Source: Pigmentiphaga sp. NML080357 (GTDB taxonomy: Bacteria; Pseudomonadota; Gammaproteobacteria; Burkholderiales; Burkholderiaceae_B). From it: a DNA stretch of 64,000 nt. The DNA lies in the NCBI RefSeq assembly GCF_002188465.1, contig NZ_NINW01000020.1, positions 1 to 64,000 of the forward strand. The letters are read 5' to 3'. Below are positions 18,871 to 47,918 of this stretch, piece by piece (position 1 is the first letter of the stretch; each line of letters begins with the position of its first letter). Below the pieces are notes generated by a model. The model made no database searches. It worked only from the letters and a program-made list of their open reading frames with translations, and was not told the DNA's origin. Position numbers and translations under genes: made by a program.

Positions 18871-18875
18871 TATGT

Positions 18876-18903: not shown

Positions 18904-18945
18904 TTGATCAAGATCAAGGTACTGCCTTCACCTCAGCTCTATGCT
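18904..18945 (+). promoter_or_regulatory. FNR/ANR class II promoter reading into the 19-27 kb arm
   Basis: TTGAT-CAAG-ATCAA (18904-18917) is a perfect FNR/ANR/DNR consensus. TATGCT (18940-18945) fits a -10 hexamer; with the start expected at 18952, the box is centred at -41.5, the exact class II activation position. The leader to the first gene (19152) would be about 200 bases. A frame at 18941-19177 inside it has no support as a gene. Confidence 0.75.
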
Positions 18946-19151
18946 GAGCTTAACAAGCCACATTTGGCACGGATCGATCATGCTCAGAAACTATCGAGGA
19001 CTTTTTAGCGGGGCCATGGAAATCTCCGGTGTTCAGCCCCATTCTTCTGGCATACTTGTTTTATGGATGGGCCTGATCAGCGCCCTGCACGGCACTCGAA
19101 TGCGGGAATCTCGCCAATCGACAAGGGTCAACTTCACGAAGGAGCATCGCC

Positions 19152-19478
19152 ATGAATATTCGGCCCGATCGAAGTAAGAGCACAGGAAACGGCCCGAACT
19201 GGTCTCGCATCAACCAGTGGCTGCTGTGGCTCGGCCTCGCCGCCGCCGTTGCCTGGATGTTCTACCGCCACAACGCCCATCTTCTGCAACTGCTTCCCTT
19301 CCTCTTCATCCTCGCCTGTCCGTTGATGCACATCTTCGGCCATGGCAGTCACGGCGCACATGGCGGTCATGACCATCAAGATCAGCCGCCTCGGGGCGAT
19401 GAAGGGGGTTCGCCTGCGCGCCAATCAGACGACCGGAGCCGCCCGAAATCCGTCGACCAGTCCGGGCACCACCACTGA
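19152..19478 (+). CDS. DUF2933-type small membrane protein (second paralogue)
   Basis: A 108-residue protein with two adjacent hydrophobic stretches (WLLWLGLAAAVAWMFY and LLPFLFILACPLMHIFGH) and a long His/Gly/Asp-rich tail ending GHHH. The ILACPLMHIFGH pattern groups it with the proteins at 12345 and 46605. AAGGAG lies nine bases before the ATG. It is the first gene after the FNR-type promoter and lies 18 bases before an HMA metallochaperone, repeating the DUF2933-plus-copper-handling association seen in the cop operon. Function unknown; the His-rich tail suggests metal binding. Confidence 0.78.
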   Translation: MNIRPDRSKSTGNGPNWSRINQWLLWLGLAAAVAWMFYRHNAHLLQLLPFLFILACPLMHIFGHGSHGAHGGHDHQDQPPRGDEGGSPARQSDDRSRPKSVDQSGHHH

Positions 19479-19496
19479 AACCACCGGAGCATCATC

Positions 19497-19796
19497 ATGG
19501 AAACCATCGAACTCAAGGTTGCCGGCATGACCTGCGCCTCCTGCGCGAACTCGGTCAGCAAGGCGCTCAAGCGCGTAGCTGGTGTGCAAGACGTGCATGT
19601 CGATCTCGCTCGCGGCGCAGCGAGTGTCACCGGCGACCAGACGGCCCAGAAGACGCCTGAGCTGATCGCGGCCTTAGCTGCCGCGGGCTACGAGGCATCC
19701 GCTGATTCCTCGCCGGGCATTGCGGCGGGTGCCGGTGCCTCCCATGCGCCGGCCGCTGCCCGTTCAAAGGGGCATGGCGGCTGCTGCTGCCGCTGA
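19497..19796 (+). CDS. HMA-domain metallochaperone with a C-terminal CCC tail
   Basis: A 99-residue soluble protein. Residues 1-68 form a ferredoxin-like HMA domain with the metal loop GMTCASCANSV, as in CopZ and the N-terminal domains of copper ATPases. It carries Cu(I) to a membrane pump. An Ala/Gly/Ser-rich linker follows, then the unusual end SKGHGGCCCR, three consecutive cysteines next to His that could add a second thiolate site or a membrane/partner contact. The gene begins 18 bases after DUF2933 and ends eight bases before the DUF3141 gene, so the three are probably one transcript. No cognate ATPase is in this arm; the CPD-type ATPase of the opposite arm is a candidate partner. Confidence 0.85.
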   Translation: METIELKVAGMTCASCANSVSKALKRVAGVQDVHVDLARGAASVTGDQTAQKTPELIAALAAAGYEASADSSPGIAAGAGASHAPAAARSKGHGGCCCR

Positions 19797-19804
19797 TCGA
19801 CGCC

Positions 19805-21472
19805 ATGGACGCACGCACGAACTCCCAGGGTATCGCCGCCGCACCGCTTGGGCTCTTTGCTGCCTACTGGGGCGACATGCTGTGGCGGACCGTCGCGTCC
19901 GGCGAAGCGCTGAGACAGCGCGCCAACAACATGACCGAACACGAAGCGGCGGGTATGCCGCCGCTGCTCCACTTCGAGTCAGAGCAGGTGGCTGACGGCC
20001 ACGACTTGCAACCGGCGAGCAACTACCGGCTCCTGCGTGTCACTCGCTGTGGCACCGACGCCTTGGAGAAGCATGTGCGCAAAGGCGCCGCGCCGGTGCT
20101 GGTGGTCGATCCACGCGCCGGCCACGGCCCTGGCATTGGCGGCTTCAAACGCGATTCTGAAGTTGGCATGGCACTGCTCGAAGGCCATCCCGTGTACTTC
20201 GTAGTGTTCGATCCGGAGCCCGTCGAGGGCCAGACCATGGGCGCAGTCGTCCAGACCCTGGCCACATTCATCGACATGGTGGCCAAGCGCCACCGAGGCA
20301 AGGCCCCGATCGTCTACGGCAACTGCCAAGGCGGTTGGGCGATCACGCTGGCGCTGTCGCACTGCGAGCACCGTGCCGCCTTGGCAGTGCTCAATGGCTC
20401 GCCGCTGTCGTACTGGGCAGGCGAGAGAGGCATCAACCCCATGCGGCTGCTCGGTGGGCTCACGGGCGGCATCTGGCCGGCGCACTGGGCGTCGGACCTC
20501 GGCGCCGGGCGATTCGACGGTGCCTGGCTGGTCCAGAACTTCGAGGCGTTGCGGCCCGAGGGCGTGTTCAAGAAATACGACACGCTCTTCGCGCAGCCGG
20601 AGACTGAGCGCGATCGCTTCCTGGAGTTCGAGCGTTGGTGGAATGGCTTCTACCAGCTTGCCCGCGAGGAAATGTTGTCGATCGCAGGCGATCTTTTCGT
20701 AGGTAATCACCTGGAGAGCGGCGAGGTCGTGGTCGATGGCCACTGCCGCGCGGATCTCAGCCGCATTGGCGCACCGCTGGTGGTCTTTTGCTCCAACGGC
20801 GACAACATCACACCGCCCCACCAGGCGCTCGGCTGGCTCAAAGCGGTATATCCGACGACCGCAGACCTGGTGGCGGCGGGCCAGCGCGTGGTGTACCTGC
20901 TGCACCAACATGTTGGCCACCTTGGCATCTTCGTCTCCGCGGGGGTGGCGCGACGCGAGCACCGCGCCATCTTGCATCATGCCGAATCGATCCAGGCACT
21001 CAAGCCTGGACTCTACGAGATGGTTCTGGAGGACAGCGCCTCTTCGGAGTCGGCCGCCGCTGCGCAGTTCCAGCCGCGGCGGCTGGAAGACCTGCCTTAC
21101 GACGCCAACCCGGCGGGGTTCGACAAGGTCGAAGCACTCTCGGAGATCACCGAGCGCTTCTATTCGCAGTGGGTGTCGCCGTGGGTCCGCTTCGCCGTCA
21201 CCCCCGACTCGGCTCGTGAACTTCGCGCGCTGCACCCCATGCGCGTCAGTCGCAAGGTCTGGTCCGAGCAGGTGACCCCGGCCCTGGCGCTGCTGCCATG
21301 GGTGCAACGATGGCTTGAGCAGTGGAGTGCGCAGGATCCCCATCGGGTCGAAAATCCTTGGTATCAGCTTGAGCGAACTGGTGCAGACGCGATTGGGCAG
21401 GCCATGGAATCATGGCGCAAGAGCCGGGACCTGTGGGCTGAGCTTGTGTTCGAGCAGGCCTATGCCAACTGA
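19805..21472 (+). CDS. DUF3141 protein, PHA-synthase-like alpha/beta hydrolase
   Basis: A 555-residue protein of the DUF3141 family. The core from about residue 95 to 400 is an alpha/beta hydrolase related to class I/III PHA synthases: a lipase-like box YGNCQGGW places Cys174 as the likely nucleophile, with CSNGDNITPP providing the Asp region and HVGHLGIF the His. The first ~60 residues resemble the PhaC/phasin-like helical lead (DMLWRTVASGEALRQRANN). Family members often sit beside acetate kinase and phosphotransacetylase genes, as here beside ackA, but no phosphotransacetylase is present. The substrate is not known; a thioester or polyester reaction is plausible from the Cys nucleophile. 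Confidence 0.72.
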   Translation: MDARTNSQGIAAAPLGLFAAYWGDMLWRTVASGEALRQRANNMTEHEAAGMPPLLHFESEQVADGHDLQPASNYRLLRVTRCGTDALEKHVRKGAAPVLVVDPRAGHGPGIGGFKRDSEVGMALLEGHPVYFVVFDPEPVEGQTMGAVVQTLATFIDMVAKRHRGKAPIVYGNCQGGWAITLALSHCEHRAALAVLNGSPLSYWAGERGINPMRLLGGLTGGIWPAHWASDLGAGRFDGAWLVQNFEALRPEGVFKKYDTLFAQPETERDRFLEFERWWNGFYQLAREEMLSIAGDLFVGNHLESGEVVVDGHCRADLSRIGAPLVVFCSNGDNITPPHQALGWLKAVYPTTADLVAAGQRVVYLLHQHVGHLGIFVSAGVARREHRAILHHAESIQALKPGLYEMVLEDSASSESAAAAQFQPRRLEDLPYDANPAGFDKVEALSEITERFYSQWVSPWVRFAVTPDSARELRALHPMRVSRKVWSEQVTPALALLPWVQRWLEQWSAQDPHRVENPWYQLERTGADAIGQAMESWRKSRDLWAELVFEQAYAN

Positions 21473-21767: not shown

Positions 21768-22901
21768 ATGCGCGTCCTCGCCATCAATGCCGGCAGTGCG
21801 ACCCTGAAGTTCGGAGTTTTCGAGTCGGCTCGTACCTTGCCATTGATCGACTCGGCGATTGATCATCCTGCGGTGGATGCTGCGACCTTCGAGGAGATCG
21901 AGCGGCACTTGCACAGGGCGGGTGTCACAACGATCGATGGCATTGGTCACCGCGTCGCACACGGTGGCCCACTGTTGAGCAACGCGGTGCTCGTGGATGA
22001 AGAAGTCGAACGCGAGATCGGCAAGGCTTCGGCTCTGGCGCCGCATCACAATCCTGCCGCATTGGCCGGCATACGCCTGACCCGTGAGCGTTGGCCCGGC
22101 GTGCGCCACGTCGCGGTCTTCGACACCGCTTTCCATGACGACATGCCCGAATACGCCCATTCCTATGCTGTTCCGCCATCGTGGCGCGCGGCAGGGGTAC
22201 GGAGATACGGCTTCCATGGCCTGTCCCACCAGGGTGTACTGGCCGCCGTCAGCACCGAGCTGAAACGGCCGCCGTCAGAACTTCGTATCGTGAGCTGCCA
22301 CATTGGAAGCGGCGCCAGCGTCTGCGCGATCGATCGCGGAAGGTCGATCGATACATCGATGGGAATGACCGCGCTTGAAGGTCTTGTGATGGGCACGCGC
22401 TGTGGAGACCTCGACCCTGGCGTACCCGGCTTCGTCGCACGCGCACTGGGTTTGACGTTGGCGCAGATCGAGGCGGCGCTTTACAGCGACAGTGGACTCA
22501 AAGGATTGTCGGGTGAGAGTTCGGACCTGCGGATTGTGGAGAAGCGCGCGGGAGAAGGAGTCGCAGCCGCCCAACTGGCATTGCAGGTACACGCGTACCG
22601 CGTGCGCAAGTACATCGGCGCCTACGCCGCCGCGATGGGCGGTTGCGATGCTGTGGCCTTCACTGGCGGAGCTGGAGAAAATTCGGCCGCGTTGCGTCGG
22701 CGCATCGTTGATGGCCTGGAGTTCATCGGCCTGGAACTAGACGAAGAGCGCAATCGCGCCTACTCGCCCAACACTGAAGTCGCCCAGTTGCAGTCATCCC
22801 GATCCGCCGTCGCCGTGCTGGTGGTTCAAGCACGCGAGCAGTTAGCGATCGCGCGTGAGACGTTCCGAGCGCTGAATGACCAGGCAAGTGGTTTGGTATA
22901 G
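21768..22901 (+). CDS. ackA: Acetate kinase
   Basis: A 377-residue ASKHA-fold kinase interconverting acetyl phosphate + ADP with acetate + ATP. Family signatures: MRVLAINAGSATLKFGVF at the N-terminus, GHRVAHGGPLL, VAVFDTAFHDDMPEYAHSYA, RRYGFHGLSHQGV, CHIGSGASVCAIDRGRSIDT, MGTRCGDLDPGV and TGGAGENSAALRR. All expected catalytic regions are present, though the protein is about 20 residues shorter than E. coli AckA. GGAG lies seven bases before the ATG. With the phosphoketolase-family enzyme at 25161 in the same arm, it can make ATP from acetyl phosphate without phosphotransacetylase. The 295-base gap before it holds no gene. Confidence 0.93.
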   Translation: MRVLAINAGSATLKFGVFESARTLPLIDSAIDHPAVDAATFEEIERHLHRAGVTTIDGIGHRVAHGGPLLSNAVLVDEEVEREIGKASALAPHHNPAALAGIRLTRERWPGVRHVAVFDTAFHDDMPEYAHSYAVPPSWRAAGVRRYGFHGLSHQGVLAAVSTELKRPPSELRIVSCHIGSGASVCAIDRGRSIDTSMGMTALEGLVMGTRCGDLDPGVPGFVARALGLTLAQIEAALYSDSGLKGLSGESSDLRIVEKRAGEGVAAAQLALQVHAYRVRKYIGAYAAAMGGCDAVAFTGGAGENSAALRRRIVDGLEFIGLELDEERNRAYSPNTEVAQLQSSRSAVAVLVVQAREQLAIARETFRALNDQASGLV

Positions 22902-23072: not shown

Positions 23073-23118
23073 CGCTCGAAAGTGAAGGGATTCAAGACAA
23101 CCTTGCTGGAGGATGGTG

Positions 23119-23571
23119 ATGCAACTCATTGAATGCGCCAAGGCGGCAGGCGTCACACCGGACACGTTGCGTCACTACCTTCGGGTGGGGCTTGTGGTGC
23201 CCGATGGCCGGGGCACGAACGGCTACCGCGCATTCTCGGATCGAAGCGTCGCCCGGGTTCGTTTCATACGCAATGCATTGGCCCTCGGCTTCACGCTCAA
23301 GGACGCTGCAGAGTTTGTCGAGATGAGCCAGCGCGGTGCATCGCCTTGTCCGCGCGCGCGGGCGCTGCTGAGCGAACGGCTTGACGAGCAGGCCCGGCGG
23401 CTGAAGGAGGCGACAGATTTGCATCGCCGCATGCAGCAGGCAGAGCGCGACTGGAAGCGGCTGCCGGACGGCGTCCCGGATGGCCATTCCGTCTGCGGTT
23501 TGATCGAAGGAGCGGATGCGGACGTTCAGCGCAATTCGGTGCGCGCGAAGTCCCGTCGTGTACGCGCATGA
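23119..23571 (+). CDS. MerR-family metal-type regulator
   Basis: A 150-residue MerR regulator. The start is taken at MQLIECAK because GGAGG lies six bases upstream; an ATG two codons earlier abuts GGAGG. The winged HTH (AKAAGVTPDTLRHYLRVGLV, then GTNGYRAFSDRSVARVRFI) is followed by the long dimerisation helix. Two Cys positions match ZntR/CadR-like sensors: SPCPRARALLSERL before the helix and HSVCGLIEG near the end, but the adjacent CC pair of ZntR is missing, so metal choice is uncertain. A MerR-type promoter with dyad lies just upstream. It precedes cfa by 154 bases. Confidence 0.85.
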   Translation: MQLIECAKAAGVTPDTLRHYLRVGLVVPDGRGTNGYRAFSDRSVARVRFIRNALALGFTLKDAAEFVEMSQRGASPCPRARALLSERLDEQARRLKEATDLHRRMQQAERDWKRLPDGVPDGHSVCGLIEGADADVQRNSVRAKSRRVRA

Positions 23572-23725: not shown

Positions 23726-25054
23726 ATGAGCCACCTCACGACACGGGATCGAACCGTATCGCCCGACGGATATGCCGCCGCGCTACGGATCTTGCGCCGG
23801 CTGCTGGCCGGCATCGAGCGCCCGCCGGCGTTGCGTCTGGGCGATATGCTCTTGCACGAGCTCGAATCGCACCCGGAATACACCCTGATCATCCGTGACC
23901 CGGGTCTGCTGCGTCGCTTGGTCCTGCGCCCGGATCCGCTGCTGCTGGCGGAAGCCTATTTCCGCGGCACCATCGACATTGAGGGAGACCTGTACACCGC
24001 GCTCGGGCTCAAGGCGCATTTCGAGAGGTTTTCGCTCTCTTGGCGCGACAAACTGGCCCTGTTGCGCGACGCACTGCTGCTGCGCGTGTCCGACCAGGAC
24101 GGGTTGAAGCCCTCGCGGAGTCTGGCCTCGCGCGTCGCACGTCGCTTCTCCCATCGCCATTCGCGTCAAACCGATCAGGCCGCGATCTCCTTTCACTACG
24201 ATGTGTCCAACGCGTTCTATGGACTCTGGCTCGATGCCGAGAGGGTCTACTCATGTGGCTATTTCAAGGCGACGGATGACACGCTGGACCAGGCTCAGTG
24301 CAACAAGCTGGAGCACATCTGCCGCAAGCTGCGTCTGCAGCGAGGCGAACGCCTGCTCGACATCGGCTGCGGCTGGGGCGCGCTCGTATGCTGGGCGGCA
24401 AGAGAACATGGCGTCCGTGCGCACGGCATCACGCTCAGCCAACAGCAACTCGAATACGCGCGCGAGCGCATCCGCTCGGAGGGCCTGCAGGATCTCGTCA
24501 CCGTTGAACTGCGCGACTACCGTGACCTCGAAGGCACGGCCGTTTTCGACAAGGTGTCAAGCATTGGCATGTTCGAGCACGTGGGACTCGCGAACCTACC
24601 GGCCTACTACGCGGTGGTCCAGCGGGTTTTGCGGCCAGGAGGACTCTTCCTCAACCACGGGATCACCCATGACGAGGAGGGCTGGAGCCGAACCGTCGCG
24701 ACCGAGTTCATCAACCGCTACGTCTTCCCCGACGGCGAATTGGACTGCGTCAGCAATATCCAGCTAGGGATGGAGCGCTCCGGCTTCGAGATCCATGACG
24801 TCGAAGGTCTTCGACCCCACTACGCGCTGACCTTGCGTCATTGGGTCCAGCGACTCGAAGCGCGCCGGGAGGAGGCCTTGCGGGAGGTCGATGAGGTGAC
24901 CTTCCGCATCTGGCGCTTGTACATGGCGGCGTGTGCACTGGAATTCGAGGCCGGGGGGACTGGGATCTACCAGATCGTCGCGTCCAAACGCGACGGCGGA
25001 AGCTGGCCCGTGCCCTTGACCCGCTCTGATCTTTATGGAGAACACCAGCCATGA
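23726..25054 (+). CDS. cfa: Cyclopropane-fatty-acyl-phospholipid synthase
   Basis: A 442-residue SAM-dependent enzyme that adds a methylene bridge to unsaturated acyl chains of membrane phospholipids, usually in stationary phase or under acid/anaerobic stress. The N-terminal lipid-binding region (about 1-150) is followed by SHHYDVSN-type substrate contact ISFHYDVSNAFYGLWLD, YSCGYF, the SAM loop LLDIGCGWGAL, the active-site segment SSIGMFEHVG, and the C-terminal RIWRLYMAACALEFEAG. GAGG precedes the ATG. It lies 105 bases upstream of the phosphoketolase-family gene on the same strand. The chromosome probably carries its own cfa, so this is likely an accessory copy. Confidence 0.92.
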   Translation: MSHLTTRDRTVSPDGYAAALRILRRLLAGIERPPALRLGDMLLHELESHPEYTLIIRDPGLLRRLVLRPDPLLLAEAYFRGTIDIEGDLYTALGLKAHFERFSLSWRDKLALLRDALLLRVSDQDGLKPSRSLASRVARRFSHRHSRQTDQAAISFHYDVSNAFYGLWLDAERVYSCGYFKATDDTLDQAQCNKLEHICRKLRLQRGERLLDIGCGWGALVCWAAREHGVRAHGITLSQQQLEYARERIRSEGLQDLVTVELRDYRDLEGTAVFDKVSSIGMFEHVGLANLPAYYAVVQRVLRPGGLFLNHGITHDEEGWSRTVATEFINRYVFPDGELDCVSNIQLGMERSGFEIHDVEGLRPHYALTLRHWVQRLEARREEALREVDEVTFRIWRLYMAACALEFEAGGTGIYQIVASKRDGGSWPVPLTRSDLYGEHQP

Positions 25055-25160
25055 ACGCTAGATGGCCGTGCCGCTGGCGCGCGAAAGACGATCACAGACG
25101 CCAGCCTTCCCAATCTCGCCGTCGCGCTTACCTGCGTGCCGGCTCTCAAGGACTTTCCAC

Positions 25161-27590
25161 ATGAACCACGAGCTTCCCTGGGTCGCCGAGCGCGTCCGCG
25201 TGTTCCGCGAGTCTGATCCCGAGTTCGCCCGCTGGGCGCGCGGCCACGGCCCCATCACCCACAACGATCTCACGCAACTGCGAGTCCACGATCTCGCACA
25301 GGTGCTGGTTGCCGAAGGCAAGGCGAGCGACACAACCGCGGTGTATCGCACGCTCTGGTCGGCGGACCGCCTGGCCGTGGCAGGCATGTGGTTGACGGTT
25401 CACATGACCTATGCCGACCGGGTCTATCCCGATGGCCGGGAGATGAGAGCCGAGGATTTCAAGGAGACGCCGGAGGGGCATACCGGTGGGGCGCTGAACA
25501 TCGTGCCGGCCTATGTCGGCTACCTGGCCGCGAACGCGCTCAGTGGGTTGACGCGTGGCTGGTTGATGGGCCAGGGCCATTGCGTCGCGGGCATCGATGC
25601 CTGCAACCTTCTGGTGGGCAACATGACGCCGCGCCACGCCGAGAGATACGACCGCAGCGAAAGCGGCCTCACGCGCTTTGCCCGGGATTTCTATAGCTAC
25701 GCGATCGACGCACAGGGGCGTCCCGCCTCGCCGCTGGGCAGCCACGTCGGCCCGAATACGGCAGGCGGTCTGTCCGAGGGCGGCTATCTCGGCTTTGCCG
25801 AACTGCAGTACGTGCACATGCCCTTGCCCGGCGAGCGGCTGGTGGTGTTCCTCAGCGACGGCGCTTTCGAGGAGCAGCGTGGCAGTGACTGGGCGCCGCG
25901 CTGGTGGCGGGCAGAAGACAGCGGCTTCGTGGCACCGTTCATGATCCTCAACGGTCGCCGCATCGAACAGCGCAGCACCATGCAGCAGCAGGGGGGCCGA
26001 GAATGGTTCCACCAGCATCTGCGGCTGAACGGCTTCGACCCGATGGAGATCGACGGCACCGACCCCGCCGCGTTCGCCTGGGCCGTTCACGCGATGGAGG
26101 AGCGGTTGTCGGCCTGCGCGGCTGGAGTTTCGCAGGGCACCGTTCAGTACCCGGTACCCCTCCACTACACCATCGCCGAAGCGCCCAAGGGATTCGGCTT
26201 CCCCGGTGCTGGAACCAATGCCGCGCACAACCTGCCGCTGGAGGGGAACCCCCGGGTCGACCAGATAGCGCTTCAGCAGTTCAACGAGGGTGCTCGCGCT
26301 CTCTTCGTGCCGTCGCACGAACTCGACGAAGCGGTCGCACTACTGCGCCGGCACGAAGTGCAGCATCGTCCCCTGGAGCGGGACCATGCCCTGGCGCACC
26401 GCCAGGTGGCGGCCCCCAGACTTCCGGTTCCGCAGTGGCATGTTGCGGGCCAGGGCGAGGTCTCGCCAATGGCGGCACTCGACGGAGCCTTCGCGGCCCT
26501 CGTCCAAGCCAACCCACAGCTGCGTCCGCGGGTAGGCAATCCGGACGAGCTGCGCAGCAACCGCATGGGCCAGACATTGGACCTGCTCAAACACCGCGTC
26601 TTCACGCCCGAACCGGGCCTGGCGGAGGCCGTCGATGGCGCCGTGATCACGGCGCTCAACGAAGAAGCGGTGGTCAGCGCGGCGCTGGGCAACAAGGGCG
26701 GCATCAACTTGGTCGTCTCTTACGAGGCATTTGCCGTCAAGATGCTGGGCGCGCTGCGCCAGGAAATCCTGTTCGCGCGACATCAGGCGCAGGCAGGCAC
26801 ACCACCCGGATGGCTGTCGGTGGTCACGGTTGCGACGTCCCACACCTGGGAGAACGGCAAGAACGAGCAGTCGCACCAGGATCCGACGCTGGCCGAAGCG
26901 CTGTTGGGCGAAATGTCCGACACCTCGCGCGTGTTGTTCCCGGTCGATGCCAACAGTGCCGTTGCGGCGCTGCGCGCGGCCTACGCCTCGCATGGCCAGT
27001 TCTGGACGCTGGTCGTTCCCAAGCGGGCCGTCGCCAGCCAGTTGAGTGCCGAGCAGGCCGAACGCTTGGTCGATCAGGGTGGTTGGGTGGTGAAGCCCTG
27101 CGACGCCCCCGACGTGTTGCTGGTTGCCATCGGCGCATACCAGCTACAGCAGGCCCTGCTTGCGGCGCGGCGCCTCGAAGCCGCTGGACATCGGACCGCA
27201 GTGACCTGCGTCATCGAGCCGGGCCGCTTCAGAGCACCCCGCGACGAACGCGAGCAGGACTTTGTGGCCGGCGACCAGGCCTTGCGCGCCCTGTTCCCGG
27301 AGACTGCCGCCGTGCGCGTCATCGTCTCGCACATGCGACCCGAGCCGACGCTGGGCCTGATGCGTCGGATCGATACAGGGGCGCGGCAGACCCGTGCCTT
27401 GGGCTACCAGGCGCGCGGCGGGACACTCGATGTGGCCGGCATGCTGTTCGCGAACCGTTGCACGTGGGCGCACGTCGCGGCGGAGGCGGCTCAAGGGCTC
27501 GGTGTCGATCCGCAGAGCTTGCTGAGCGCCGAGGAGTGGGCGGCCGTGCAGGGGCGTGGCGACCCGCGCGTCATCACGGTCTCGGCTTAA
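25161..27590 (+). CDS. Divergent phosphoketolase-family (XFP) thiamine diphosphate enzyme
   Basis: An 809-residue protein from the ATG at 25161 (AAGGA eight bases upstream; an in-frame ATG 33 codons earlier gives a low-complexity leader). Phosphoketolases cleave xylulose-5-P or fructose-6-P with phosphate to acetyl phosphate and an aldose phosphate. The fold can be followed throughout: GHTGGALNIVPAYVGYLA, GLSEGGYLGFAELQ, AAHNLPLEGNPRVDQIAL, LEEFSEH-equivalent SHTWENGKNEQSHQDPTL, and RGGTLDVAGMLFANRCTWAH near the end. Several classical motifs are altered: GQGHCVAGIDACNLL where most have GPGHGGP, and LSDGAFEEQRG where most have GDGEAETGPL. It may therefore be a distinct subfamily (some databases name relatives xylulose-5-phosphate 3-epimerase). 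The neighbouring ackA supports acetyl phosphate as product. Confidence 0.8.
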   Translation: MNHELPWVAERVRVFRESDPEFARWARGHGPITHNDLTQLRVHDLAQVLVAEGKASDTTAVYRTLWSADRLAVAGMWLTVHMTYADRVYPDGREMRAEDFKETPEGHTGGALNIVPAYVGYLAANALSGLTRGWLMGQGHCVAGIDACNLLVGNMTPRHAERYDRSESGLTRFARDFYSYAIDAQGRPASPLGSHVGPNTAGGLSEGGYLGFAELQYVHMPLPGERLVVFLSDGAFEEQRGSDWAPRWWRAEDSGFVAPFMILNGRRIEQRSTMQQQGGREWFHQHLRLNGFDPMEIDGTDPAAFAWAVHAMEERLSACAAGVSQGTVQYPVPLHYTIAEAPKGFGFPGAGTNAAHNLPLEGNPRVDQIALQQFNEGARALFVPSHELDEAVALLRRHEVQHRPLERDHALAHRQVAAPRLPVPQWHVAGQGEVSPMAALDGAFAALVQANPQLRPRVGNPDELRSNRMGQTLDLLKHRVFTPEPGLAEAVDGAVITALNEEAVVSAALGNKGGINLVVSYEAFAVKMLGALRQEILFARHQAQAGTPPGWLSVVTVATSHTWENGKNEQSHQDPTLAEALLGEMSDTSRVLFPVDANSAVAALRAAYASHGQFWTLVVPKRAVASQLSAEQAERLVDQGGWVVKPCDAPDVLLVAIGAYQLQQALLAARRLEAAGHRTAVTCVIEPGRFRAPRDEREQDFVAGDQALRALFPETAAVRVIVSHMRPEPTLGLMRRIDTGARQTRALGYQARGGTLDVAGMLFANRCTWAHVAAEAAQGLGVDPQSLLSAEEWAAVQGRGDPRVITVSA

Positions 27591-27766
27591 CCCCCTTCCA
27601 GCACGACCCACGACCGGACGCTGATTGCGCCGACGCACTCTGCTCTTCATGTGCGTTGCCAGGTCGCACTGGGTTCGGATGTCTGACGAATGGCTGTGGG
27701 ACCGATGGCCACGTCGCGCCTGAATGTCGTCCTCCCGTGCCAAGTAGCACTTCCTTGTCCGGGCGT

Positions 27767-28369: not shown

Positions 28370-28433
28370 GGGCCGTTACTCCTCAACAACATTTCACCCG
28401 AGCGCCCATCATCGCTTGACACGGGTGCCATCA

Positions 28434-28455
28434 ACTTACAAACTAGTTGGTAAGT
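28434..28455. promoter_or_regulatory. TetR-type operator dyad
   Basis: A 22-base near-perfect palindrome, ACTTAC-N10-GTAAGT centred on AACTAGTT, matches its own reverse complement at 20 of 22 positions. It lies 19 bases upstream of the SDR gene start and 65 bases from the TetR start. It is the expected binding site of the adjacent TetR protein. Confidence 0.7.
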
Positions 28456-28474
28456 AAACCACAGGAGTGCATTT

Positions 28475-29305: not shown

Positions 29306-29313
29306 TCGCTGTT

Positions 29314-35198: not shown

Positions 35199-35251
35199 GG
35201 GCAGTCATCTCCCCTCGATCGTGAGCGTCATGGCGAGCGCGGCGCAGCGGC

Positions 35252-39047: not shown

Positions 39048-39072
39048 GGTAGGTCTCCAAAGATGTTGTCGT

Positions 39073-39570: not shown

Positions 39571-39571
39571 C

Positions 39572-40477: not shown

Positions 40478-40478
40478 G

Positions 40479-41090: not shown

Positions 41091-42412
41091 GGTTCGGTTT
41101 CCGTGGAAGTGAGAAAAGTGCGGGACGGTGAAGCGCTCACCAGGACGGGGTTGGCTGGCCACCAATGCCGCGGAATGAGCAGCAGCGCGAGTGTGGCGGC
41201 CAGTGGAATCGACAGCCACGCAAAGGTGCTCTGCATCACAGCGCCGAATAGCCATCCGCTGGTGGCCGATCCCAGTGTTTGTCCGAGGCCGGCTGCCGCG
41301 GCGAGCCCTCCCATCGCGATACCGAGCCGCCGCGCCGAGGTGCCGGCAGCGAGGTAGGCCAGGGTGGGGAGCACAAGACCCGTGCCCGCAGCCATGAAAC
41401 TCACGCCGACGTACAGCCACATCTCGCTGCCATGGCGGGCCAGCATCAGGAGCCCGGCGATGCCCAGGACCATGCCGCAGGCCAGTACGCGGCGTGGGTC
41501 GGCGCGCTCCAGCAGGCCGGTGAAGAACAGCACCGCGTTGACGCCCAGCATCACCAGACTGCACTCGGCGAACATCAACGACACCTCTCGGGAGGAGAGA
41601 TCGGGGTGGCGCTGGCCCTGCAGCACGATGCCGAGTTCAAAGCCGGCAAGCACGAACATGACCACACCGTTGAGAATCCAGAGCGCCAGGGAGCGGCTCC
41701 GGGGTGCTCCGTCGTGATCGGCTGCGTCCGCCTCTCCAAGGGAGGAAGGTGCGGGAAGCGTTGCGGCCAGGCCCAGCATCATCAGCGCGCCGAGCGCGGC
41801 CGAGAGTGCGATCACGAGCGTGGTCGATGAGCCCTGTACCAGCACGCTCAAGAAGCCCAGGCCGACAAGCCGTTCTGCAGCGGTGTTCAGGCCGGGGCCG
41901 AACAGGAACCCGAGCAGCGACATCGCACCCAGCCATGCAAAGCGCCTGGCGCGAATCGATTCTGGGGTGTACTGCGCGACGAGCGCCGGCACCACCGGCA
42001 CGACCGCGGCCACAAAAAAGCCCGTCGCGCCGCGCAGCGCATAGATGCCGACCACGCCCAGGGACTCGGGGCGCAGCAGCGGGAGCAGGCTGGCCACGTA
42101 GCCGATCAGGCCCACCAGCAACACGCGGGCACGCCCCAGCCTGTCCGCCAGCATGCCCCACAGGGGCGCACCCAGCAGGATGCCCGCCGTGTAGATGCCG
42201 CTGAGGTAGCCGACATGGCGCGCAAGCGCCGCAGGATCCGCGTCGCCCATCAAGGGCCGCAGCCAGTCGGGGATCAAGGGCATCAGTGCCCCATATCCGG
42301 CCGAGACGACGAATACGGCCGCAGCGAGCCAACCCAGCTGCGCGACGCCGAGGTCTTGCTGGCGGGTGGGCCCGGATTCGCGCGGTGATCGCATGGCGCG
42401 GCTCTCTACCAT
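41087..42412 (-). CDS. MFS transporter
   Basis: A 441-residue major facilitator with 12 predicted hydrophobic segments and the MFS motif A region GMLADRLGRARVLLVGL between TM2 and TM3. It resembles multidrug/metabolite exporters of the DHA1 type. The substrate is unknown. The start at 42412 leaves a 13-base gap after the CPD-ATPase stop; an alternative ATG (MRSPRE) lies at 42394. The gene is translationally coupled to lemA. Between an ATPase and LemA it may export a small molecule or metal complex, but this is only context. Confidence 0.82.
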   Translation of the reverse strand: MVESRAMRSPRESGPTRQQDLGVAQLGWLAAAVFVVSAGYGALMPLIPDWLRPLMGDADPAALARHVGYLSGIYTAGILLGAPLWGMLADRLGRARVLLVGLIGYVASLLPLLRPESLGVVGIYALRGATGFFVAAVVPVVPALVAQYTPESIRARRFAWLGAMSLLGFLFGPGLNTAAERLVGLGFLSVLVQGSSTTLVIALSAALGALMMLGLAATLPAPSSLGEADAADHDGAPRSRSLALWILNGVVMFVLAGFELGIVLQGQRHPDLSSREVSLMFAECSLVMLGVNAVLFFTGLLERADPRRVLACGMVLGIAGLLMLARHGSEMWLYVGVSFMAAGTGLVLPTLAYLAAGTSARRLGIAMGGLAAAAGLGQTLGSATSGWLFGAVMQSTFAWLSIPLAATLALLLIPRHWWPANPVLVSASPSRTFLTSTETEP

Positions 42413-42425
42413 GGTGGCCCGCCGC

Positions 42426-44891
42426 TCAGGCTGACGCGGCCGCTGGGACACTGGCACGCGACGTCACGCGCTTGATCCCCGGCAGGCGCGTGCGCTTGAG
42501 CATCAGCGCATTGATCGCGACGATCGCGGAACTGCCCGACATGGACAATGCAGCGACCTCGGGCGACAAGGTGAACGGATACAGCACCCCGGCCGCCAGC
42601 GGGAAGGCGAGCACGTTGTAGGCCACGGCCCACCAGAGGTTCTGGTGCATCTTGCGCAGCGTCGCCCGGGACAGTTCGATGGCCCCGACCACGTCGTAGG
42701 GGTCACTCTTCATCAACACCACCTGGGCGCTTTCCATCGCAACGTCCGTCCCCGCGCCAATCGCAAAGCCCACGTCGGCCTGCGTCAGCGCCGGAGCGTC
42801 GTTGATGCCGTCGCCGACCATGCCGACCTTGTGACCCTGCTGCTGCAGTTCCTTGATCTTGGAGGCCTTCTGCCCGGGCAACACATCCGCAAGCACGATG
42901 TCGATGCCCAGTTCCTTGCCGATGCGCTCGGCGGTCGCCTGGTTGTCGCCGGTCAGCATCGCGACCTTCACGCCGCGTGCCTGCAGCTTGGCGATCGTCT
43001 CGCGCGAGGTCGGCCGCACGGCATCGGCGATCGCGATGAGGCCGATCAGCCGGCCACCGCGCGCGACGTGGACCACAGTGCGCCCCCCGCCTTGCAGCCG
43101 CGTTGCCTCGCTGGCAAGGGGAGCCAGATCCACCTGTTCCGACTGCATCAGCAGCCGGTTGCCCAGGAGCACCGTCTCGCCCCCGATAGTGGCCCGTGCG
43201 CCTTGCCCATCGATGTTGGTGAAGTTCTCGGTGACCTCCGTCGGCATGTCTCCCGCACGCTTGAGCACTGCGAGCGCGAGGGGGTGCTCGGAGAACTTCT
43301 CCACCGCGGCGGCCGTCGCCAGAAGCCGCGTCTCCTCGACACCGGGCGCGGCCACCATCTCGACGACATCGGGCTGCCCCAGTGTCAAGGTGCCGGTCTT
43401 GTCGAACACCACGACCGTCAACTTGGTGGCGTTCTCCAATGCGGCCGCATTCTTGAAGAGAATGCCGTTCATTGCGCCCAGCCCGGTCCCGACCATGATG
43501 GCCATCGGGGTGGCCAGCCCCAGCGCATCAGGGCATGCGATCACGAACACGGTGATGGTCAAGGTGAGTGCGAACAGTAATGTCTGTCCCATCACCCAGT
43601 ACCAGACGCTGAAGGTCAGCAGGCCAATCACGATCGCCGCCAGCACCAGCCACTGGGATGCGTGGTCGGCCAGCAGCTGGCCGGGGGCCTTCGAGTTCTG
43701 GGCCTCCTGGACCAGCTTGACAATCTGCGCCAAGGCCGTGTCCGCGCCGACCTTCGTGGCCTTGTAGCGAAAGCTCCCGCTCTTGTTGATGCTGGCGCCT
43801 ACGACGGTGCTGCCCACGCCCTTCTTGACCGGCATGGACTCGCCCGTCAGCATCGACTCGTCCACTTGTGACGCGCCCTCGACGATCTCGCCATCCACCG
43901 GGATCTTGTCGCCGGGCTTGATCACGACCAGTTCCCCGGCTGCAACCTCGGCGGTCGGTACCTTGGTCTCCACCCCGTTGCGCACGACCGTGGCCATGGG
44001 TGGGGCGAGATCCATCAACGCGCGAATCGCGTCGGATGCGCCCGCGCGGGCGCGCATCTCCAGCCAGTGCCCCAGCAGGATGAAGACCAGCAGCACCGAT
44101 GCCGCTTCATAGAACACCTCACCCTCGTAGAAGAAGGTCGCGCCGATGCTGAACAGGTAGCCGGTGCCCACCGACAGCACGACCAACGTGGCCATGTTGG
44201 CGACGCCGTTGCGCAGCGCGCGCCACGCCGCCACGTAGAAAGGCCAACCTGGATAGATGATCGCGGCACTTGCGAGGAAGAAAAGAAAGAGCTTGTCGTC
44301 CAGCCCGAACGGCGTCTGGAAGTCGCCGAACATCTTCCCCATCGGGGAATAGAAGAACACGGGAATGGCGAAGACCAGGGCCACGAAGAAGCGATTGCGC
44401 ATGTCCCGAGCCATGTCCTGCATCGAGCCCGACCCGTGGCCCATGTCGTGCATCATGTCGTCCATCGCAGGGTCGCCTGCGTGGGCCTGGTGCGCAGCAT
44501 GGGCGGCGGGCGTCGTGGCCGCAGCCTTCGCGCGTGCGGCCGTGGCGGGGGCATGCGCGTGGTGCCCCTCATGCCCCATCTCTTGCGCCTGACGTGCGGG
44601 TGCGCCGTGATGGCCGTGCACCGCATGGCTGGGGTCGGCAGAGACGCCAGCGGCGGGCGCGCACACGTGCTTGGGCGTCTGCTCGCCACGGCAGTGATAG
44701 CCGCATTCGGCGATGCGCTGGCGCAGATCCTCGACACTGAGTTGTCCCTCATCGAGATGGACCGTTGCGCTTCCCGCAACATAGTTGACATCTGCATGAT
44801 GGACGCCGGGAAGCTGCAGCAGCTTGCGGCGTACTCCCTCCGCGCTCAGGCTCGATACGAGCCCTCCGACTTCAACGTTGATCGACTTCAT
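42426..44891 (-). CDS. P1B-type metal ATPase with a CPD membrane motif
   Basis: An 821-residue P-type metal pump. It has the full catalytic set: [12 protein letters not shown] (actuator), [11 protein letters not shown] (phosphorylation), [12 protein letters not shown] (nucleotide site), [14 protein letters not shown], and [12 protein letters not shown]. The membrane metal site reads [12 protein letters not shown], i.e. CPD where Cu(I) pumps have CPC and CopB-type pumps CPH. The N-terminus (1-70) keeps an HMA-like fold but lacks the CxxC pair ([10 protein letters not shown]), followed by a His/Met-rich tail ([38 protein letters not shown]). Start [10 protein letters not shown] at 44891, with GGAAG upstream. 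The metal carried is uncertain. It lies between PPK2 and MFS. Confidence 0.9.
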
Positions 44892-44923
44892 GGCTGTTCT
44901 TCCTGTTCGCTGTGTTCGTGGTC

Positions 44924-45787
44924 TCAACGAGCGAGTCGGCCCGAGTCCAGGCAGTCCTGCGAGAACTCGAAGACGATCTCCCGGTCGGGAGCGATGACCT
45001 TGTGCTTCTTGCCGGCGTAATGCAGCCGGGAGAGGATGTCTCTGATCAGGTTGAGCCTCGCCAACCGTTTGTTGTCGGCGTGCACGACAGACCAGGGCGC
45101 CGCGGCCGTATGGGTGCGCATGAACATCTCGTCGCGCGCCCGTGTATAGCCGTCCCAGTGCTTCAGCGCGACGGCATCCACCGGGCTCGACTTCCACTGT
45201 TTGAGGGGATCACGGCGGCGTTCCCCGAGCCGGCGGCTCTGCTCCTTCTTGCCGATGTCGAGGTAATACTTCAGCAGCTTGATACCGGAGTTGACCAGCA
45301 TCTCCTCGAACTTGGGCACTGAGTTCATGAATTCCTCGTGCTCCTCGGCGGTACAGAAGCCCATCACCGGTTCCACGCCCGCACGGTTGTACCAACTGCG
45401 GTTGAACACCACGAGCTCTTCGCCAACTGGCAGGTGCGGGACGTAGCGCTGGAAGTACCAGCCCGTGCGATCCCGGTCGGAGGGCTTTCCTAGCGCGACG
45501 ACCCGTGTTTCCCGAGGACTCAGGTGTTCGACCAGCCGCTTGATGCTGCCGTCCTTGCCTGCGCCGTCCCTTCCCTCCAAGAGGATCAGGATACGGTCGT
45601 TGCATTTGATGAAATGCCGCTGCAGTTTCACCAGTTCGATCTGCAGCATGTGCAACTGTGCTTCGTAGTCCTCGCGGCCGATCGAGCGTGTCGCTGTCTC
45701 GTCGCGCGCTGAGCCGTGGGCAGTGCCGGTGCCGTCCACATCGGCCTTGTGCTTGGCGCCTTTGGCGCCCTTCTTGTTCTTTGCCAT
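44924..45787 (-). CDS. ppk2: Polyphosphate kinase 2 (PPK2)
   Basis: A 287-residue PPK2-family P-loop enzyme that transfers phosphate between polyphosphate and nucleotides, most often making ATP/GTP from polyphosphate and NDPs. Walker A is [15 protein letters not shown], Walker [19 protein letters not shown], and the lid module [32 protein letters not shown] basic N-terminal tail ([15 protein letters not shown]) is typical. The exact class (NDP or NMP kinase) is not decided by what I can see. It follows the methyltransferase gene, with a 52-codon small frame between, and precedes the CPD-type ATPase by 32 bases. It would supply ATP independently of respiration. Confidence 0.93.
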
Positions 45788-45797
45788 GGGTTCTCCG

Positions 45798-45956: not shown

Positions 45957-45957
45957 G

Positions 45958-46608
45958 TCAGCCTCGCTGGCGCGTGTCCGAGAGGGAGGGAAGGAAGCGC
46001 GGCGTGCGCGCGGCATAGGCGTCGAACTCGGCGCCGAACTGCTTGCGCATGTCCTTCTCCTCGTTGACAGCCAGCCTCGAATACATCACGACGAGGAAGG
46101 GGAACATCAGCAGCGTCAACAGCGTCGGCCACTGCAGCAGAAAGCCGAAAAGGATCGCCACGAAGGCCACATACTGCGGGTGCCGAATCCTGGCGTATGG
46201 GCCGCTCACGGCAAGTTGGGCGTGCCGTTGCGCGTGGTAGAGCACCGTCCAGGCGCTCGACAGAAGCCAGAAGCCGCCCCCGATGAAGATGTAGCTCGCG
46301 ATATGAAGCGGGCTGAAGTGAGGGTCGCCGCTCTCGCCCAGCAGGGTCGACCAGAGATGGCCGCTGTTGTGCGACAGCAAGTCCAGACTGGGATACTTGG
46401 TCTGAAGCCAGCCGGACAGCACGTACAGCGTCAGCGGAAAGCCGTACATCTCGACGAACAAGGCAACAATGAACGCTGCGAATGTCCCGAAGGTTCTCCA
46501 GTCGCGCGAGGTCTGCGGTTTGAAGAAGCTGAAGGCGAACATGATGAAGACCGCCGAGTTCACGAGGACGAGCAGCCAAAGCCCATAAGCGGGCGCATCG
46601 TGGTTCAT
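45958..46608 (-). CDS. Isoprenylcysteine-methyltransferase-like membrane protein
   Basis: A 216-residue membrane protein with about five hydrophobic segments and the C-terminal signature of the ICMT/PEMT superfamily: SGPYARIRHPQYVAFV (cofactor/substrate loop) and VNEEKDMRKQFGAEFDAYAARTP with the Glu-Glu pair. Bacterial members probably methylate small isoprenoid or lipid-like substrates with SAM; functions are mostly unknown. Its ATG overlaps the preceding DUF2933 stop (46605-46608). It lies in the metal-related head of the leftward arm. Confidence 0.85.
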   Translation of the reverse strand: MNHDAPAYGLWLLVLVNSAVFIMFAFSFFKPQTSRDWRTFGTFAAFIVALFVEMYGFPLTLYVLSGWLQTKYPSLDLLSHNSGHLWSTLLGESGDPHFSPLHIASYIFIGGGFWLLSSAWTVLYHAQRHAQLAVSGPYARIRHPQYVAFVAILFGFLLQWPTLLTLLMFPFLVVMYSRLAVNEEKDMRKQFGAEFDAYAARTPRFLPSLSDTRQRG

Positions 46609-46844
46609 TTGCGCTCTCCCGGGTACGGTGGATTCGCCTTGCTACCGTCGCCTGGTACGGCATGGCGATGCATCAGCACATGAGCGATGACGCAAGTCGC
46701 CAGGAGGACCAGTGGCAGCGCGGCCAGGTAGTGCCCGCGGTGTTCCGTCAGCAGCATGTAGATGCTCACGGCCAGGAAGACCAGAAAGCCCAGGAACCAT
46801 CGCGAGCGCGAAAACCTTGGACCGGTGCGGTGAGAAGTTGTCAT
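46605..46844 (-). CDS. DUF2933-type small membrane protein (third paralogue)
   Basis: A 79-residue protein with the start at 46844, where GAGGA lies five bases upstream (a GTG at 46859 would add five residues). It has two hydrophobic segments (WFLGFLVFLAVSIYMLL; LAALPLVLLATCVIAHVLMH) and a short polar tail. It aligns with the DUF2933 proteins at 12345 and 19152 but replaces their ACPLMH core with ATCVIAHVLMH and lacks the long His-rich tail. It lies between a Met-rich secreted protein and the methyltransferase, coupled to the latter by ATGA. Confidence 0.72.
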   Translation of the reverse strand: MTTSHRTGPRFSRSRWFLGFLVFLAVSIYMLLTEHRGHYLAALPLVLLATCVIAHVLMHRHAVPGDGSKANPPYPGERK

Positions 46845-46855
46845 GGTCGTCCTCC

Positions 46856-47257
46856 TCACTTCGCCGGCTCAGGCATCCGGTCCATCATCATCTGCATCAT
46901 GGACTGGCACATGTCCATGCGCATTTCGAGCATTTGCTGCCGCTCAGCTGTCGGCGCCGACTCGGCTCCATCCTTCATTGCGCCCATCATCGCCATGCCA
47001 GCCCGCATGGCCTGCATGTGTTCGGCCATGAGCGCCTTGCGCTGCGCAGGCGTCTTCGCAGCCACCATCCGTTCGTGCATGGCCTGCATCGACTTCAGTT
47101 GCGCATCCATGCCCTCGGTGGTCGGCGCCCTTGGCGTCTCGGCCGCGGTCGGACTCGCACCTGCGGGGTGATGGGCCTGATGGTTGTCCTGCGCGAACGC
47201 AGACAAGGTGACCAGTGCGGCGCCAACGATGGCCGCGATCGAATGCGTGAATTTCAT
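46856..47257 (-). CDS. Exported Met/His-rich protein
   Basis: A 133-residue protein. The start at 47257 is preceded by AAAGGAG and opens a signal peptide (MKFTHSIAAIVGAALVTLSAFA). The mature part begins QDNHQAHHPAG and is rich in Met and His, with a helical segment of many methionines (MRAGMAMMGAMKDG; MLEMRMDMCQSMMQMMMDRM). Such proteins bind Cu(I)/Ag(I) or related soft metals in the periplasm. It stands behind a MerR-type promoter (47330-47360) that matches the operator near 18876, so it is likely induced by a metal through a MerR regulator. Confidence 0.75.
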   Translation of the reverse strand: MKFTHSIAAIVGAALVTLSAFAQDNHQAHHPAGASPTAAETPRAPTTEGMDAQLKSMQAMHERMVAAKTPAQRKALMAEHMQAMRAGMAMMGAMKDGAESAPTAERQQMLEMRMDMCQSMMQMMMDRMPEPAK

Positions 47258-47329
47258 TTCTCTCTCCTTTAGCCGCGGGTGCCTGCCATTGGGGCGAAAC
47301 CGATGTCGCCGCAAGCGGACAAAGCCCTA

Positions 47330-47360
47330 TGAAAACTCCGTAGTCGGGTACAGAGTCAAG
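47330..47360 (-). promoter_or_regulatory. MerR-type metal-responsive promoter
   Basis: On the minus strand TTGACT (47360-47355) is followed after 19-20 bases by TTTCAT/TTCATA. A 22-base dyad ACTCCGTA-N6-TACAGAGT (47336-47357, plus-strand sense) fills the spacer, which is the layout of MerR-family operators. It drives the Met/His-rich protein gene starting 73 bases downstream. The MerR protein at 47990 or 23119 is the likely regulator. Confidence 0.75.
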
Positions 47361-47411
47361 GCTTATGAGTTGTGCGCCGGGTGTGACCGACACGGCAACT
47401 CAAAGGAGGCG

Positions 47412-47846
47412 CTACAGCGCGAGACGCTCGAACAGCAGCCACGACGGCCGCTTGGGAGGTGGTCGCTGGTGACCCCTCGACGGGATGGCTCGCAGAGCCA
47501 ACGTCGGAGCCAGCAGCTGGTCTCCATAGGCGGGAGGCGCCAAACCGACGAGGTCGAACGCAAAGGTTGGTGCTTTCTGAATGGCGGACTGGTTGACGTC
47601 GCCGCAGAGCTTCAGGCACGGGGCCTTCGACGGGTCGTGGGAACCTTCTTCGTGCTCACCATGGAGGCCTTCATGATTTCCATGCCCGGACGATGGGACA
47701 TGCTCATACCCGACAGCATGCCGATGTTGCTGCGGAGACTCCAGAAGGCAGGCATTGGCCACCCCGGCCCCGAGCGCAAACAGCCATACCCCGAGCACCA
47801 TCCACGCGATGGCGCGAATCCTGCGGTGGTTGAGAAGTGTGCGCAT
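47412..47846 (-). CDS. Exported His-rich small protein, first gene behind the right FNR promoter
   Basis: A 144-residue protein with an N-terminal hydrophobic segment (IAWMVLGVWLFALGAGVANA, residues 13-32), then a His/Glu/Cys-rich middle (HGNHEGLHGEHEEGSHDP; APCLKLCGDVN) and a proline/arginine-rich end. The build resembles the 151-residue protein that heads the cus operon. No named family is recognised. It is the first gene downstream of the leftward FNR-type promoter; AGG precedes the ATG, and the leader from the predicted start site is only 24 bases. A MerR-type promoter follows it, so later genes can be expressed separately. Confidence 0.65.
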   Translation of the reverse strand: MRTLLNHRRIRAIAWMVLGVWLFALGAGVANACLLESPQQHRHAVGYEHVPSSGHGNHEGLHGEHEEGSHDPSKAPCLKLCGDVNQSAIQKAPTFAFDLVGLAPPAYGDQLLAPTLALRAIPSRGHQRPPPKRPSWLLFERLAL

Positions 47847-47876
47847 GTGCGGCCTATTGACCCATTGACACCTGTG

Positions 47877-47918
47877 ATTCTATTCCCAACTGAGCTGCGG
47901 GAAATTGATTTGGATCAA
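47877..47918 (-). promoter_or_regulatory. FNR/ANR class II promoter reading into the 47-29 kb arm
   Basis: TTGAT-TTGG-ATCAA (47905-47918) is a perfect FNR/ANR consensus. On the minus strand TAGAAT (47882-47877) is a near-ideal -10; with the start expected at 47870, the box is centred at -41.5. It mirrors the promoter at 18904-18945. Confidence 0.78.

Follow-up and report, generated by a model that had tools for sequence, protein, structure and literature searches.

The window analyzed here, a stretch of 64,000 nucleotides from Pigmentiphaga sp. NML080357 (contig NZ_NINW01000020.1, positions 1 to 64,000), contains a block of metabolic and metal-related genes that is bounded by two perfect FNR/ANR boxes (TTGAT-N4-ATCAA). 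Both boxes point inward, and each is followed by a -10 hexamer, one leading into a rightward and the other into a leftward arm of genes. The features at the two ends of the block are the following:

18878..18895, no strand assigned: MerR-type operator CCCGTAGCTGGGTACAGA, upstream of the right FNR box, centre at about -65
18904..18917, plus: perfect FNR/ANR box of the rightward arm, TTGATCAAGATCAA
18940..18945, plus: -10 hexamer TATGCT, implied start 18952
47337..47359, minus: mer-type promoter inside the left arm, TTGACT fused to operator TCTGTACCCGACTACGGA
47877..47882, minus: -10 hexamer TAGAAT (read 47882-47877), implied start 47870
47905..47918, minus: perfect FNR/ANR box of the leftward arm, TTGATCCAAATCAA in minus-strand reading (47918-47905)
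47978..48412, plus: divergent MerR-like regulator, TIGR02051 score 130.7 bits, below the mercury MerR cut-off of 150.85 bits

Geometry and rarity of the paired boxes

The spacer between box and -10 hexamer is 22 bases in each arm, so that the box centre lies at -41.5 relative to the start implied by the -10. This placement is derived from the hexamers in both arms, which imply the start sites. A preliminary description of this DNA had assigned both sites to class II FNR/ANR promoters with this spacing, and re-reading the sequence confirmed both boxes, both hexamers, and the -41.5 distance.

No other perfect box occurs in the window, where 0.019 would be expected (P for two or more, ~2e-4; first-order model). 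Sites with at most two mismatches number 18, against 9.8 expected, and the 16 besides the two perfect boxes all carry exactly two mismatches. The interior of the block is therefore devoid of boxes with zero or one mismatch, in agreement with the preliminary description, which had noticed no further perfect box there. In the host genome (5.73 Mb), we found seven perfect boxes, and none with a reversed-pattern control. A box followed by 21 to 22 bases and TAnnnT occurs exactly twice in this genome, namely, at the two ends of the block (reversed control, 0). When 60 relatives were searched, the same two sites were recovered in G004, a genus-mate that also carries the block, and 6 of 10 genus-mates had no such site; the reversed control was nonzero in 6 of the 61 genomes. 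The pairing of the boxes is thus a confirmed observation that far exceeds chance.

Another perfect box of the host lies upstream of a universal stress protein gene (L180, G000:C58 near 223771), with TGTACT, which does not conform to TAnnnT, 22 bases further on as judged by eye. From its sequence, this gene is a possible chromosomal member of the same regulon.

Gene content of the two arms

The rightward arm comprises the first seven genes listed below, and the leftward arm comprises 17 genes, from 47846 down to 29314.

19152..19478, plus: DUF2933 small protein (Pfam PF11666)
19497..19796, plus: HMA metal-binding protein (PF00403)
19805..21472, plus: DUF3141 alpha/beta-hydrolase-like protein (PF11339)
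21768..22901, plus: acetate kinase (PF00871)
23113..23571, plus: MerR-family regulator within the right arm (PF13411/PF09278; best NCBIfam matches are ZntR models, below cut-off)
23726..25054, plus: cyclopropane-fatty-acid synthase (PF02353)
25062..27590, plus: phosphoketolase (XFP; PF03894/PF09364)
27767..29305, divergent pair between the arms: TetR (27767-28369, minus) and short-chain dehydrogenase/reductase (SDR) oxidoreductase (28475-29305, plus)
29314..30576, minus: MgtC/DUF4010 membrane protein, last gene of the left arm (PF13194, PF02308)
30573..31628, minus: type II glyceraldehyde-3-phosphate dehydrogenase (TIGR01546 over cut-off)
31656..33278, minus: ABC1/UbiB kinase-like protein (PF03109)
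33275..34702, minus: D-2-hydroxyacid dehydrogenase (PF00389 from residue 142 and PF02826 from residue 245 of the open reading frame), true start probably near 34.3 kb
34554..35198, minus: DUF6629 membrane protein (PF20334)
35252..36151, minus: ribose-phosphate diphosphokinase-like protein (NF005537 over cut-off)
36148..37689, minus: archaeal-type thymidine/AMP phosphorylase (TIGR02645 and NF003338 over cut-off; TIGR03327, AMP phosphorylase, below)
37686..39257, minus: beta-CASP metallo-beta-lactamase-fold ribonuclease-like protein (PF10996, PF07521)
39572..42457, minus: TPM, LemA, and MFS transporter genes (PF04536, PF04011, PF07690)
42426..45197, minus: P1B-type heavy-metal ATPase, CPD replacing CPC (open reading frame overextended at its 5' end)
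44924..45787, minus: polyphosphate kinase 2 (PPK2; PF03976)
45958..46859, minus: isoprenylcysteine-methyltransferase-like protein (45958-46608, below NCBIfam cut-off) and DUF2933 protein (46605-46859)
46856..47314, minus: His/Met-rich small protein of 152 residues without family matches, first gene behind the mer-type promoter
47412..47846, minus: small protein of 144 residues, first gene behind the left FNR promoter (open reading frame call, syntenic; implied leader of 24 nucleotides)

The seven rightward genes agree with the preliminary count, and about 20 leftward genes had been announced, where we count 17. The block had also been described as consisting of two arms, which does not hold for the TetR/SDR pair: it is a member of neither arm, and it is absent from L019 and L048, whose match to the window jumps from 27598 to 29314. 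The membrane motif of the P1B-type ATPase is CPD in the window and in all 11 relatives checked (L153-L160, L164, L166, and L170); a second ATPase in L158 has the usual CPC. The 152-residue protein is syntenic in seven of the eight non-identical left-arm loci (L153-L160) and was not found in L160.

Directly adjoining the block, the region 77-18517 holds genes for copper/silver efflux and oxidases, along with one for a CusS-like sensor. The multicopper-oxidase-like protein at 14180-16162 carries a long run of MTG repeats.

The right-arm promoter in related loci

Scanning a genome collection with the DUF3141 protein yielded 80 loci, the best of 106 relatives, and the 73 of them with at least 1,700 bp of upstream sequence were tested for a box within 2 kb (the other 7 had less than 1,700 bp). 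A perfect box was present upstream of DUF3141 in 19 of the 73 loci: eight of the 12 near-identical copies, 10 of the 24 closer, non-identical loci (at least 60% protein identity), and one of the 37 others. Each of 19 permuted palindromes used as controls scored 0/73. TAnnnT occurs at the window's offset in nine of the 10 closer non-identical loci bearing the box, and one base nearer in L047.

We also analyzed the offset with no selection for a -10 hexamer, in the 68 non-identical loci that remain after leaving out the 12 near-identical copies. These loci contain 19 perfect boxes anywhere, 16 of which have TAnnnT at 36 (10 boxes) or 35 (6 boxes) bases from the box start; the remaining 38 offsets in the range 20 to 59 together gave three matches with the same 19 boxes. 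All 16 pairs share the reading direction of DUF3141, some lying upstream of this gene and others behind it. Since the Piscinibacter loci L025-L027 are nearly alike, the number of independent pairs is below 16.

Nine lineages, picked for having the box and anchored on it without further alignment, were then compared column by column. The near-duplicates L013-L017, L019, L020, L025, L026, L028, L030, L035, and L048 were excluded, as were the Azohydromonas loci L044, L045, and L047, in which the box is present and the operator was not seen by eye. Nine of the 10 columns of the box arms (partly by selection) and four of the six -10 columns are invariant, and the spacer, the N4, and the flanks have diverged around the box. 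Mean column consensus is 0.60 for the spacer, 0.56 for the N4, and 0.49 upstream; in the MerR-type operator, it is 0.76, with 2 of 18 columns invariant. Outside the sites, the median pairwise identity is 31%, with L022, L023, L024, and L027 up to 69% alike.

In four copies otherwise nearly identical to the block (L017, L018, L019, and L035), the match to the window (segments of at least 400 bp, 96.6 to 99.5% identity) starts only at 19186, and the region of the promoter and first gene is therefore a different sequence. All four have a one-mismatch box, and the three of them that were displayed retain operator, box, and -10 in place. Judged from the sequences, this resembles a natural promoter exchange in which the architecture has been preserved. 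A DNA search with 18600-19800 among 72,556 plasmid records gave two partial matches. The conjugative plasmid pTM3 of the alphaproteobacterium Tistrella mobilis (L217:6302) matches 18600-18925 at 86.9%, keeping the operator and a perfect box, and its match stops just past the box, before the -10 and the first gene. The second match covers the DUF2933 gene only.

The left-arm promoter in related loci

PPK2 searches led to 20 fetched loci, 15 of which, together with the window, make up 16 copies with the order merR, 144-residue-protein gene, PPK2; the other five (L161-L165), in which this order was missing by tblastn, were not counted. The left box is syntenic in all 16 copies and perfect in 10, namely, eight near-identical copies (the window included), Roseateles puraquae L153, and the metagenome-assembled genome L160. 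TAnnnT is found at 36 bases in the eight near-identical copies and at 35 in L153 and L160. Among the uncounted loci, Roseateles saccharophilus has a perfect box with TAAGCT at 36 bases just before a relative of the 144-residue protein gene (L161:7354, one and the same site as L038:3819; 33% protein identity, E 3e-11) and another perfect box with TATGCT at 36 bases directly upstream of a second PPK2 gene (L162:7492). No perfect box was found in L163, L164, and L165.

It could be that only the right arm has a functional class II FNR promoter and that the left box mainly serves the divergent merR gene or is a relic. Such a view would accommodate the mer-type promoter just behind the left box and the six Piscinibacter/Rubrivivax-type copies (L154-L159) that have a one-mismatch TTGAC variant and no TAnnnT at 34 to 38 bases. 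However, a perfect left box with a -10 at 35 to 36 bases is present in 10 of the 16 copies, two of which are diverged lineages, and the L161 site combines box and -10 before a relative of the same first gene. We consider this explanation unlikely.

mer-type operators and MerR-like proteins

The right-arm operator reads TCCGTAG-N5-TACGGA in most relatives. It is present in all 14 displayed right-arm loci with zero to two mismatches, both halves being exact in 10; one mismatch is found in L023 and two in the window, L020, and L021. No TTGAC is fused to this operator in the 14 loci. Upstream of the left box, a half operator, GTAGTTGAC, occurs in 15 of the 16 copies, L153 differing.

A fusion of TTGACT to the dyad, which is the arrangement of mer promoters, is found inside the left arm. 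TTGACTC[CT]GT, which occurs once in the window, lies 550 to 602 bp behind the start of the left box in 16/16 copies, between the gene for the 144-residue protein and the next gene. The first half of the dyad is TCTGTA in the near-identical copies and TCCGTT in L160. For a -10 at the 19- to 20-bp spacing of mer promoters, weak candidates were seen by eye behind the TTGACT.

The contig of the window carries a mercury operon with merR and merA at ~88.3 to 91.2 kb, among its genes of an integrative and conjugative element (ICE) (G000:C10; L174, L181). The operator of this operon, TCCGTAGTCAACTACGGA, matches TCCGTAG-N5-TACGGA exactly and, like the promoter in the left arm, is a TCCGTA dyad fused to TTGACT. 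Unlike it, the version in the block leads into metabolic and metal genes, and the right-arm operator lacks the TTGACT. The MerR of the mercury operon could act on the operators of the block. The MerR-like protein encoded at 47978 also differs from the mer system: the Cys of its THC segment is missing in the proteins of the window, L153, and L160, and C-X8-C is kept. We take the missing residue to be the first of the three mercury ligands. With this Cys missing and a TIGR02051 score below cut-off, the gene was rejected as a mercury-responsive merR. The operator at -65 may have a role in the right arm.

The block might be primarily a metal-stress island, controlled by the MerR-like and mercury MerR proteins through the mer-type operators, with the FNR boxes secondary. 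The mer-type promoter in all 16 left arms would fit, as would the metal genes inside and adjoining the block and the merA-containing mer operon of this contig, whose operator has exactly the right-arm consensus. Yet the right operator has no fused TTGAC and is conserved less than box and -10, the position of the -10 is set by the box, and the cargo is mostly metabolic. This makes the proposal rather improbable.

Candidate host regulator and ICE setting

An HTH_Crp_2 scan of the host genome, in which 150 of 185 candidates were scored, gave 20 matches. The top protein is a chromosomal Fnr, with 248 bits against the NCBI Fnr cut-off of 228; it has a C-X2-C-X5-C segment plus a later Cys, residues that we presume to be the iron-sulphur ligands. 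None of the 20 matches from the scored candidates lies on the window's contig (C10), and a CRP/FNR gene on that contig was rejected accordingly.

Proteins of the Dnr/NnrR and FixK types share the FNR half-site, and the boxes could be read by such a member of the FNR superfamily, the signal then being nitric oxide or a two-component cascade. The available part of PMC9104804 indeed assigns boxes of this kind to FixK2. In the host, however, the top-scoring protein is accepted by the Fnr model and carries the C-X2-C-X5-C segment; 6 of the 20 HTH_Crp_2 matches pass the cut-off, only one with E < 1e-12, and the proteins behind 4 of the 20 were inspected. We see only a small likelihood for such a reader. 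That the boxes are two chance palindromes, for which the shortness of the motif could be invoked, is very unlikely in view of the 16 of 19 boxes with TAnnnT at 35 or 36 bases in the 68 loci, and the rarity in the host genome, the first-order model, the permuted palindromes, and the box-plus-(-10) search all speak against it.

PFGI-1-class ICE genes adjoin the block, from 50 to 64 kb of the window, and continue to 106.7 kb of the contig, which ends at 114 kb. Eight families of PFGI-1-class conjugation genes are over cut-off (TIGR03760, 03755, 03756, 03757, 03744, 03754, 03761, and 03764). The element resembles PFGI-1-class ICEs in its MobH/TraI relaxase, TIGR03755-03757, TraC, TraD, and ParB genes and differs from them in its cargo. 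Copies of the block with ~95 to 99.8% identity were found in records named Achromobacter, Stenotrophomonas, Pseudomonas, Hydrogenophaga, Variovorax, Diaphorobacter, and Aquabacterium. Among seven left-side stretches compared, ICE genes of the window past 50 kb are matched as well in L168-L171 but not in L166, L167, and L172, indicating that the block is not bound to a single backbone.

A SoxR-like protein (48647-49093) scores over cut-off, its match to the profile beginning only at position 42. L170 and L172 cease to be nearly identical to the window at 48957, and the outer edge of the block may therefore cut soxR.

Comparison with known systems

In Bradyrhizobium diazoefficiens, phosphoketolase and acetate kinase form bll2518-bll2517, and thymidine phosphorylase, phosphoribosyl pyrophosphate (PRPP) synthetase, and a metallo-beta-lactamase-fold (MBL) protein form bll3117-3116-3115 (available parts of PMC9104804 and PMC6515984). 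According to the available part of PMC9104804, deletion of fixK2 in microoxia lowered bll2517, bll2518, bll3115, and bll3117 10.2-, 10.0-, 30.6-, and 6.6-fold, and boxes are predicted; bll3116 is named there only in the operon column. Products that go up in microoxia include the phosphoketolase and all three encoded by the thymidine phosphorylase-PRPP synthetase-MBL operon (PMC6515984, in its available part). The two systems are alike in having same-named gene sets in the same order with FNR-family boxes, a likeness of names and order and not of sequence, but the Bradyrhizobium sets are separate operons, whereas here they are packed between two promoters beside ICE genes. That gene sets of these names and this order, FixK2 dependent and microoxic in Bradyrhizobium as far as the two sources go, lie behind the two FNR promoters here is the strongest independent argument that the block has a role in low oxygen.

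The low-oxygen-activated (lxa) locus of Burkholderia cenocepacia J2315 (BCAM0275A-BCAM0323) is likewise a patchy accessory locus with acetate kinase, polyhydroxyalkanoate-polymerase-like, MBL, and cation-ATPase genes, and CRP/FNR regulators are predicted to control it (PMC4981469 and PMC6127331, in part). By the product names in the accessible part of PMC4981469, lxa encodes six proteins of the universal stress type, and a CRP/FNR gene (BCAM0287) is numbered inside it, whereas the block has no such proteins and no sensor; conversely, the block carries phosphoketolase, PPK2, thymidine/AMP phosphorylase, and PRPP synthetase, none of which that list names. No universal stress protein or Crp/Fnr family was found among the scanned arm proteins. 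An identity of the block with lxa was rejected on this gene list, as far as it is given there; by analogy, the block may work like lxa though distinct from it. None of the matches listed in the open-licence PMC literature is a paper describing the block, which does not by itself show it to be unpublished.

A proposed host-driven, two-input model

The block is likely to be a mobile regulon for low oxygen that lacks an oxygen sensor of its own and whose two arms would be driven by the host Fnr and receive an additional metal or thiol input from a MerR-like protein. As oxygen falls, the chromosomal Fnr would bind both inward boxes at -41.5 and activate the seven genes of the rightward arm, including phosphoketolase and acetate kinase, and the 17 genes of the leftward arm, including PPK2, the metal ATPase, the beta-CASP nuclease, PRPP synthetase, nucleoside/AMP phosphorylase, and type II glyceraldehyde-3-phosphate dehydrogenase, provided that transcription reads through each arm. 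The MerR-like regulator beside the left promoter would add its signal at the mer-type operators next to the FNR boxes and would also act at the separate mer-type promoter behind the first left-arm gene. The purpose would most likely be anoxic survival: RNA would be degraded to nucleotides and these to pentose phosphates, which phosphoketolase would convert to acetyl phosphate and acetate kinase to ATP and acetate. This route is suggested by the gene sets that match those of Bradyrhizobium in name and order.

Several observations weigh against such a regulon. Upstream of DUF3141, 14 of the 24 closer and 36 of the 37 other loci have no perfect box within 2 kb, and a box universal to DUF3141 relatives was rejected on these counts. 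TAnnnT is absent at 35 or 36 bases from the perfect boxes in L059, L061, and L065, and the six variant left-arm copies lack it at 34 to 38 bases. The nine lineages were selected for the box and include four with up to 69% likeness outside it, so that box columns invariant among them do not count as independent evidence. The right operator of the window is three mismatches away from a full palindrome and marginal on its own sequence. Intergenic gaps of up to 314 bp make internal promoters in the arms possible; a sigma-70 scan of the two arms gave one site (1.6 expected) and none (1.4 expected). Terminator-like sites number 8 (6.5 expected) and 14 (8.1 expected; standard deviation, 3.1), and one is at 34710-34689 on the strand of the left arm. 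Finally, PMC6515984, in its available part, marks the Bradyrhizobium genes as not being direct FixK2 targets.

The preliminary description had interpreted the block as one low-oxygen regulon carried as ICE cargo. The adjoining PFGI-1-class genes bear out the cargo, and the class II geometry recurs at 16 of the 19 perfect boxes in related loci. The genome-wide scan that it had proposed found the -10 at 21 to 22 bases for the block's two boxes alone among seven. Its comparison of the promoters in related elements came out in favour as regards the left box in 16/16 copies and the perfect right box in 10 of 24 closer loci, against none for 19 controls, but not as regards the six left copies with a one-mismatch box and no -10. 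A low-oxygen role is supported by the host Fnr, the conserved boxes, and the FixK2-dependent, microoxic relatives (PMC6515984 and PMC9104804, as far as available), and we regard it as probable; the mer-type second input had been missed. The single-input picture is thus incomplete, and the interpretation is partly supported.

More tentatively, the block may be a self-transferable anoxia-survival regulon that borrows the host Fnr and adds a metal signal, with paired inward promoters in which a mer-type operator, half or full, precedes each FNR box at a fixed distance, and whose module would obtain acetate and ATP by fermenting RNA of the cell itself. Such a module would work at once in new genera, Fnr and its box being shared. 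If this is true, one element would carry a whole physiological state, anoxic survival, from genus to genus and rely on the host for sensing, and oxygen and metal signals would be wired together on metal-resistance ICEs. It would also offer a candidate role for DUF3141, DUF2933, and the CPD-type metal ATPase.

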